Assembly (NCBI GenBank): GCA_025210745.1
Contig: JAOARC010000046.1
Location: 1-64,000 of the forward strand
Direction of reading: 5' to 3'
Length of the DNA stretch: 64,000 bases
Source of the DNA: Bacteriovoracaceae bacterium
GTDB lineage: Bacteria > Bdellovibrionota > Bacteriovoracia > Bacteriovoracales > Bacteriovoracaceae
The notes below the pieces were generated by a model. The model had not been told where the DNA came from. It made no database searches and saw only the letters and a program-made list of their open reading frames with translations. Positions 8,300 through 10,783 of the stretch are shown in pieces (position 1 is the stretch's first letter; each line of letters begins with the position of its first letter). A program made the translations under genes and the position numbers.

Positions 8300-10225
8300 G
8301 TGACTTTTGACAATTTTGGTCTAAAAGAAGGCCTATTATCCGCATTACAAGACATTGGATTTGAAAAACCAACAGATATTCAAAGCGAAACAATTAAACC
8401 AATTTTAGAGGGTAAAGATATTTTTGCTATGTCTGAAACTGGTTCTGGAAAAACGGGATCCTTTGCTATTCCAATAATTGAAAAAATTCTAAGATCACAA
8501 AATGAGTTTGAAAAATATCTTGTTTTAAGTCCAACTAGAGAGCTTGCTCAGCAAACAGCAAGTGTTATAAATCAATTAGGTGCAACTATGGGAATTAGTA
8601 GTGCATGTCTGATTGGTGGTGAAAAATTTGAAAAGCAACAAAAGCAAGTTGAAACAGCTAAAGTATATGTGGCAACACCTGGAAGGTTTTGTGATTTTGT
8701 TAAGCAAAAGTTTGTTCCAGCTAAAGATATCATATGCGTAGTTTTTGACGAAGCAGATCGTCTATTTGAAATGGGATTTCAAAAAGATATTGAATTTGCT
8801 TTATCGAAGGTTCAAAAAGATAGACAGCTTGTAATGGTTTCAGCAACTTCTAATATGGAAGTTTTAAAAACAGCATATAAGTTTCACTCTGAGCCATTAG
8901 AGATTAAACTGAATCATGATGACTTACTAGTTGATAATATCAATCATGAAGTAGCGATGATTTGTGAAGATGAAAAAATGCCGTACCTTGTAAACTTTCT
9001 TAGAAAAAGAAAAGATGATTGTACGATAATTTTTTGTAATACTCAGTATATGACTCATTTAGTGAGTATGTGGCTTAATAAAATGGACTTTAAGTCTATG
9101 GCCATATCTGGAAAACTAGCACAGAATAGAAGAACAAAGTTAATGGAATCTTTTAGAAATAAAGAGATTACAACTTTAGTATGTACAGATGTTGCGGCAA
9201 GAGGCCTTGATATTGATGATGTAAACCTTGTTGTTAATTATGATCTTCCAAATGAAGCTGCTAACTATGTTCACAGAATTGGAAGAACTGGTAGAGCCGG
9301 AAAAGAGGGTTATGCCATAAGTTTTTGTGGTGAAAATGATGGGGAAAATCTTGATGCCATCTACACACTTATTGAAGATAAAATTAATAAAATCGATATT
9401 GAAGATGAAGATTTTGCAACTGATTTAGTTCCAAGACCAAAAATAGATAGTAAAACTCTTAAGGAATATTCTGATAAAAAACCTAAAAAAGAGTTTAAGA
9501 AAAATAAACCTAAAAAAGAATTCAAAAAAGATCAAAAAAGAGAAAAAGACATGACTGAAAGAAAAAGAAAAGTACAAAATCACACTCCTGAAAAGATTAA
9601 AACTTTTGAAATTGAAACAACTAGTGAAAAAGATGCTAAAAATAAAGCTCTTAGATATTTTAAACTTATGGACGATAGTCTTCTTAAGATGGAAGTTCTA
9701 TCTAAAGGCTCTAAGAAATTTATCTTCTTTGGACCAAGAAAAGTTAAATATTCATTTAGCGTAACTCCAATTTTTAAAAGAATGTTATTACCATTTTTAA
9801 TTAAGCTGATTAAGAAAATGGGATTAAATGTATATGTAAGAGTTTCTTTTAAAGAGCCAGAAGTTAGAATCAATATATCTGGTAAAGATATTAAAGCCTT
9901 TATGGCAAATAAGTTTGCTCTAAAAAGAGCTGTAGAGCAGTTAGCACTTGTTCAACTTAGACAAAAAATTTATTTATCCCCAAGTATTAAGGTTAATGTA
10001 AGATTAGATAAAGAAGATAATAGAATGACTGAAGCTCAGATCATAGAGTTAGTAGAAAAAACAAAAGCACAAATTATCGAAACTAAAGAAGCAAAAACTC
10101 TTAATGCTCTAAACCCAGCTGATAGAAGAATCGTACATCAAGCAATTAATGATGATGCACGATTTGAAAGTAACTCTATAGGGGATGGAAGATTTAAGAA
10201 AATTGAGATTTCTTTAAAAGCTTAA
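8300..10225 (+). CDS. DEAD-box RNA helicase fused to a Jag/KhpB-like RNA-binding module
   Basis: This 641-residue cytoplasmic protein starts at GTG with AAGAGAG upstream. Residues 1 to about 375 form a complete DEAD-box helicase core: Q motif around 21-29, SETGSGKT with Lys51, PTREL, DEAD at 150-153, SAT, and HRIGRTGRAG. A lysine-rich linker (about 395-430) follows. The C-terminal third resembles the Jag/KhpB protein: a Jag-N-like stretch at about 434-485 (ending KFIFFGPRKVKYSF), a KH-like stretch at about 500-550 (VRINISGKDIKAFMANK), and an R3H-like domain at about 565-641 with NPADRRIVH, giving the Arg609-x3-His613 motif. Helicase function is certain; the C-terminal assignment is from pattern and order of domains. 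It probably remodels structured RNA or ribosome precursors. Confidence 0.88.
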   Translation: MTFDNFGLKEGLLSALQDIGFEKPTDIQSETIKPILEGKDIFAMSETGSGKTGSFAIPIIEKILRSQNEFEKYLVLSPTRELAQQTASVINQLGATMGISSACLIGGEKFEKQQKQVETAKVYVATPGRFCDFVKQKFVPAKDIICVVFDEADRLFEMGFQKDIEFALSKVQKDRQLVMVSATSNMEVLKTAYKFHSEPLEIKLNHDDLLVDNINHEVAMICEDEKMPYLVNFLRKRKDDCTIIFCNTQYMTHLVSMWLNKMDFKSMAISGKLAQNRRTKLMESFRNKEITTLVCTDVAARGLDIDDVNLVVNYDLPNEAANYVHRIGRTGRAGKEGYAISFCGENDGENLDAIYTLIEDKINKIDIEDEDFATDLVPRPKIDSKTLKEYSDKKPKKEFKKNKPKKEFKKDQKREKDMTERKRKVQNHTPEKIKTFEIETTSEKDAKNKALRYFKLMDDSLLKMEVLSKGSKKFIFFGPRKVKYSFSVTPIFKRMLLPFLIKLIKKMGLNVYVRVSFKEPEVRINISGKDIKAFMANKFALKRAVEQLALVQLRQKIYLSPSIKVNVRLDKEDNRMTEAQIIELVEKTKAQIIETKEAKTLNALNPADRRIVHQAINDDARFESNSIGDGRFKKIEISLKA

Positions 10226-10783
10226 ATTGTTTAAGCCAAAGTTTTCTGGGTTTTTAGCAATAACGTCTTTATAGTACTCATTAATTAACTCCATATCTTT
10301 GTTATAGGACTGTGGAGTTATAATGACTTTACCTATTTCAGCTTCTTTAGATTTATAGTTGGCTTTTGCTAAAATAATAGGAACGCCAGCTTCTTTTGCA
10401 ATATAATAAAAACCACTTTTCCATTTTTCATTTTTTGATCTTGTTCCTTCTGGAGAAATCAAAAGCAAGAGTTCATCACTGTTTATAAGTAAAGATGTAA
10501 GTTGTTTTGTTATAGACTCTTTATTCTTAAGCTTTTTTCTATCTACTCCAATAGCACCAATTGATTTTAAAATACTACCTAAAGGAAAGCTTAGCCATTC
10601 ATTTTTAATTAAAAACTTTCCTTCTATTTTGCTGGAGTAAAGAATATGCATAACTGTTACAAAATCCCAATTTGAAGTATGTGGAGCTCCAATAATAACG
10701 GCTTTTTTAAGGTTTTTTGGAATATGGTTATTTACCTTCCAACCTTGTGCTTTTGCAATTTTATGACAGATATATTTAATCAT
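10214..10783 (-). CDS. 1-acyl-sn-glycerol-3-phosphate acyltransferase family protein
   Basis: The 189-residue protein is a short PlsC-type acyltransferase. GAPHTSNWDF contains the HxxxxD catalytic motif and SPEGTRSKNEKW the substrate-binding EGTR motif. Family members transfer acyl chains to lysophosphatidate or related acceptors at the inner membrane. It lacks obvious membrane helices, and its length matches the small single-domain branch often annotated generically; the acceptor is not known. Its 3' end overlaps the convergent helicase gene by 12 bases, and it follows the lipoamide-dehydrogenase-like gene with a 4-base gap, so it is probably co-transcribed with that gene. Confidence 0.85.
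   Translation of the reverse strand: MIKYICHKIAKAQGWKVNNHIPKNLKKAVIIGAPHTSNWDFVTVMHILYSSKIEGKFLIKNEWLSFPLGSILKSIGAIGVDRKKLKNKESITKQLTSLLINSDELLLLISPEGTRSKNEKWKSGFYYIAKEAGVPIILAKANYKSKEAEIGKVIITPQSYNKDMELINEYYKDVIAKNPENFGLNNLSF

Follow-up and report, generated by a model that had tools for sequence, protein, structure and literature searches.

Structure of the fused gene

The window (the whole stretch of DNA analysed, 64,000 nucleotides of contig JAOARC010000046.1 from a Bacteriovoracaceae bacterium, assembly GCA_025210745.1) carries a gene at 8300..10225 on the plus strand, the strand of all features below unless stated otherwise. It starts with GTG and encodes, in a single open frame of 641 aa, a DEAD-box helicase followed by a KhpB-like module. 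The helicase occupies residues 1 to ~360, a linker lies at ~393–431, and Jag_N, KH and R3H domains follow in residues 435–639. The helicase consists of two RecA-like domains: DEAD (8372..8863; Pfam E-value 6.9e-44, residues 25–188), with motif I (TGSGKT), the DEAD box and SAT, and Helicase_C (8975..9301; 3e-32, residues 226–334), with HRIGRTGRAG. The linker (9476..9592) is Lys-rich and predicted to be disordered. Jag_N (9602..9763) is a beta-alpha-beta-beta unit containing a conserved KKFxxFGP stretch. The KH domain (9764..10015) has a type II fold, and the place of its GXXG loop is taken by A-N-K-F (9905..9916), which lies within a long continuous predicted helix (residues 532–556). The R3H domain (10040..10210) completes the protein. 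The last 12 bases of the gene (10214–10225) overlap a convergent acyltransferase gene (10214–10783, minus strand), and a promoter and terminator scan at the gene's own start gave no signal above chance.

A first-pass annotation made from the sequence had proposed domain profile searches for Jag_N, KH and R3H. R3H was recovered above the Pfam cut-off (5.6e-8, residues 581–637), and the motif singled out there, RRIVH, holds the conserved residues R609, R610 and H613. Jag_N fell short (0.0055, residues 442–482, 17.5–20 bits against a cut-off of 25); in one relative (L021) it passed the cut-off with 29.8 bits. The KH part had no Pfam match and no GXXG signature, and its fold was recognised by structure.

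All DEAD-box motifs, namely I, II (DEAD), III (SAT) and VI (HRIGRTGR), are invariant among the relatives, and an active motor would therefore be expected. The best NCBIfam match of the helicase core was CshA, at 344.8 bits far under the CshA equivalog cut-off of 646, and the scores for DbpA and SrmB were almost equal to it. The protein shares a complete helicase core with CshA/RhlE-type DEAD-box helicases, but carries the KhpB module in place of their basic or RG-rich tail or of a DbpA-type RNA-binding domain. A defence-system helicase was considered and rejected, since the matches were to generic helicases only.

The tail is derived from KhpB

The proposal that the helicase is fused to a Jag/KhpB-like module was borne out by profile, phmmer and structure searches, which matched KhpB across the full tail. 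The NCBIfam Jag_EloR profile aligned over its full length and in order with residues 442–637 (E-values 3e-16 to 4e-17); its 60–63 bits lie under the curated equivalog cut-off of 145. A phmmer search of the PDB returned just two proteins, both KhpB/Jag: 3gku (4.8e-13, whole tail) and the Jag-related protein of Thermus, 9lrg (1e-5). The AlphaFold model of the tail had a mean pLDDT of 91.4, and KhpB folds were its best matches. It aligned with 3gku over the whole length and from the first residue of the fold (Z 12.2), which agrees with the domain order read initially, and with apo and RNA-bound Thermus KhpB/EloR at Z 11.9 (9lrg) and 11.4, respectively. The overall rmsd to the KhpB structures was high (8–9 Å), which we infer to result from a different arrangement of the domains. 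The KH part retrieved uS3-like KH-II folds, as expected of such a fold. Both the R3H and Jag_EloR profiles were matched by 28/28 aligned relatives, and profile comparison showed the module to be homologous to free KhpB of sister lineages (probability 99.9, E-value 4e-32).

The tail has the Jag_N-KH-R3H order (with a sub-threshold Jag_N), the fold and the R3H motif of KhpB/Jag/EloR proteins (3gku of C. symbiosum, 9lrg of T. thermophilus and EloR of S. pneumoniae), including their C-terminal R3H with RxxxH. It differs from them in sitting behind a DEAD-box helicase, in having no GXXG, and in being encoded outside the yidC–mnmE slot. Because the GXXG loop is lost and the score is under the Jag_EloR cut-off, the tail is a KhpB-derived module and not plain KhpB.

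The GXXG loop is the RNA-contacting loop of a KH domain, which canonically forms a helix-loop-helix around it. In none of the 45 fused sequences checked were both glycines kept, and the model of the fused protein has a single unbroken helix at this site. Free KhpB proteins of the phylum also have no complete GXXG, the first glycine being usually absent and the second retained in 15/17, indicating that decay of the loop predates the fusion and then advanced in it. The R3H residues are retained in the same fused sequences (R in 45/45, R in 43/45 and H in 45/45), and since the KH loop is lost, it is to R3H, together with the basic linker, that RNA binding by the tail would now fall. The picture of an RNA-binding regulator tethered to a motor is thus upheld in outline, with the KH loop to be struck from it.

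In the free KhpB proteins of sister lineages that were scanned, Jag_N was not detectable, and the start was often a stretch of the MTGxFGKLFG type. The fusion therefore retains the fuller three-domain form. In the full-length model the linker (residues 393–431) has pLDDT <50 and pTM is just 0.40, so that no docking of the tail on the helicase is predicted.

Distribution of the fusion

We surveyed 129 genomes covering the family and class of the source genome. R3H was present in 56 of them, and in 50 of these 56 it was fused to the helicase in one uninterrupted frame of 648–778 aa. The remainder comprised four free-standing forms (G022, G069, G110 and G111, that of G069 being also broken into two frames) and two interrupted ones, split across two contigs in G034 and cut by a contig end in G075. 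Carriers of the fusion include Halobacteriovorax marinus, Bacteriovorax sp. BSW11_IV and several Bacteriovoracaceae assemblies, all of the class Bacteriovoracia. The fusion spans at least 26 genera with varying gene neighbours, and no conserved operon partner was found across the neighbourhoods. An assembly or sequencing artefact or a chance match was rejected on the grounds of the single-frame fusion in 50 genomes with varied neighbourhoods; that the fusion exists and is conserved is virtually certain. Among R3H-bearing members of the class, KhpB survives almost exclusively as a helicase tail. One genome (G123) has two near-identical copies of the fusion (L228 and L229), one of them cut by a contig end, which reflects either duplication or assembly redundancy.

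In the source genome, R3H was found once, in the fused gene. As had been suspected, no separate khpB lies near rnpA-yidC: yidC is followed directly by mnmE, leaving the usual khpB slot empty. A second, free khpB elsewhere was rejected at the level of R3H, in a genome that is 88% complete. The mnmE frame itself (L070, contig 15 of G000) contains internal low-complexity repeats of the form MGAxxxGPMGAKKDGSIGPKNAGPIGAKPSGSIEPKKIGSMGA.

The fused gene is missing from over half of the genomes of the class and is therefore not essential to the lineage. Thirteen class genomes without an intact fusion were tested, and the fused-helicase clade was missing from all 13; nine of these also had no R3H, and four keep a free KhpB. 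Their best core scores were 254–356 bits, compared with 631 for the fused gene here. Where the fusion is lacking in the sampled genomes, both halves have usually been lost jointly, the four with free KhpB excepted. A diverged fusion tail in the R3H-less genomes was rejected, the only matches being weak ones to the post-core stretch of other helicases. A genome of the same genus (G018, 90% complete) has no fused gene, no R3H protein and no member of this helicase clade, so the gene has been lost even among close relatives.

In other families of Bdellovibrionota, the R3H frames listed were mostly of ~150–280 aa, the size of free KhpB, khpB there being a stand-alone gene of ~180–230 aa, and in 5/5 loci read the free khpB lay between yidC and mnmE. 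A pattern scan of genome contigs gave 79 loci, of which the 17 within the class were all fused and the 62 outside it were all free KhpB with no helicase core; the patterns were derived from the fusion's own motifs and favour similar sequences, so that the scan does not represent KhpB at large. As far as searched, the fusion occurs in a single class rather than throughout the phylum. A search for the same fusion in other Bdellovibrionota, suggested in the first-pass annotation, accordingly found it recurring within the class, and KhpB free beyond it. No published account of the fusion was found in a literature search that mostly lacked coverage of subscription papers.

Origin of the fusion

In a tree of the KhpB module, all class sequences formed one clade (support 99/96) with two branches, one entirely fused and the other with free-standing forms nested beside fused ones. 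In the core tree, the fused helicase cores formed one clade (100/99), whose sister (99/93) was an unfused, RG-tailed DEAD-box helicase from Bdellovibrio-type genomes; the other class helicases fell outside this group. The deepest split (L226, L221 and L227 versus the rest) matches in the two trees, interspersed free forms aside. By the core phylogeny, the fused helicase clade arose once. The trees are most simply read as one fusion event basal to the class, after which certain lineages shed the helicase half; several fusions are a less likely alternative. Free-standing forms of two genomes (L006 and L024/L219; G110 and G111) have a basic Arg-rich N-terminal stretch resembling a helicase linker, which fits a shed helicase half.

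The sister helicase (L231–L233, from G132, G173 and G238) has no R3H, but a disordered RG-rich tail with a terminal motif of the FFxxLF type. The best explanation of the relationship is that an ancestral CshA/RhlE-type helicase of the class probably exchanged an RG-rich tail for the Jag_N-KH-R3H module. The end of the RG-tailed protein is conserved and amphipathic-looking (KVKSFFQKIFG / KVAGFFKRLFS); it resembles the MTGxFGKLFG start of free KhpB in related lineages and is possibly a common targeting motif. A separate helicase and a free KhpB in other Bdellovibrionota, set against the fusion here, constitute a Rosetta-stone pattern.

Possible functions of the fused protein

We propose a mechanism, to which we give an even chance, in which R3H and the linker would keep a helicase of the CshA/RhlE type tethered to its RNA. 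The R3H domain and basic linker would hold the helicase on single-stranded parts of target RNAs, and the RecA core would then unwind duplexes close by. The KH domain, deprived of a usable GXXG loop, may serve as a spacer or as a surface for dimerisation, KhpA being a possible partner. The likely setting would be RNA remodelling in general or RNA decay, and RNase E/G is encoded in this genome. Conservation of the fusion, the Rosetta-stone pattern, the joint loss of both halves, the kept basic and His residues of R3H and the invariant helicase motifs count in favour of tethering; the vanished RNA-binding loop of KH and the absence of the gene from more than half of the class count against it. 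Because the linker is long, the two halves could also act independently. A more ambitious version, a one-piece RNA matchmaker-helicase whose KhpB module would choose the small RNAs or untranslated regions that the attached motor then remodels, thereby revealing a partnership of proteins that are separate elsewhere, is conceivable but rather doubtful.

Other readings give the tail a different task. It might be mainly a protein-interaction arm whose KH domain pairs with KhpA, which has an intact KH, and so recruits the helicase to KhpA-bound RNAs. In S. pneumoniae, KhpA docks on the KH-II domain of EloR/KhpB independently of its own GXXG loop, even when that loop is mutated (PMC6403258). KhpA is encoded in this genome and in 116/129 class genomes, but genomes that lack KhpB altogether have it just as often. 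Co-variation of KhpA with the fusion was not seen and, as KhpA is kept with or without the fusion, gives no support for a partnership; we consider this arm unlikely. A role in ribosome assembly, with the tail directing the helicase to rRNA in the way that DbpA uses its C-terminal RNA-binding domain, would suit the near-equal DbpA and SrmB scores of the core and the likeness of the KH fold to ribosomal protein uS3. That likeness is common to any KH-II domain, and the best match of the core is CshA, a decay helicase, which leaves this role a little less probable still.

Regulation of the motor in cis, the tail inhibiting or gating the ATPase, might be imagined by analogy with HP1451, which acts in trans on the ATPase HP0525. 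The tail model does match the KH-R3H-like HP1451 in its complex with HP0525 (2pt7, Z 9.2), titled in the PDB as an inhibitory protein. HP0525 belongs to a different ATPase class, and with the long disordered linker and low pTM no docking of the tail on the core is predicted, so that we regard such gating as improbable. The two domains could finally share nothing but a promoter after a historical fusion, as the four class genomes with KhpB but no helicase half might suggest; given that one frame has been maintained in at least 26 genera while neighbours changed, and that upon loss both halves are usually absent, this is very improbable.

Implications for KhpB

Among bacterial proteins, KhpB is emerging as a global RNA-binding protein, without an agreed molecular function. 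That it partners with helicases more widely is a tentative suggestion: none of the 62 non-class loci, retrieved with a bias, has a fusion, and a parallel comes from mycobacteria. There, KhpB and the DEAD-box helicase RhlE1 are both reported in RNA degradosomes (PMC10641625, citing Plocinski 2019), the same kind of assembly, but as separate proteins that co-occur. In eukaryotes, R3H is joined to an RNA helicase in YTHDC2 (PMC5832417), which is of the DEAH family, has its R3H at the N-terminus and contains no Jag_N or KH; we infer that this joining arose independently.

The fused protein is built of known parts, and its evolution offers a useful clue to what KhpB does. The lost GXXG loop separates KH-dependent from R3H-dependent roles, and an interaction between KhpB and a helicase elsewhere, for example in mycobacteria, becomes directly testable. 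As judged from the genomes searched, the fusion is old, well conserved and class-specific, which suggests that the two jobs belong together; that a class retains KhpB almost solely as part of an RNA helicase hints strongly, on evolutionary grounds, at KhpB acting together with RNA unwinding.
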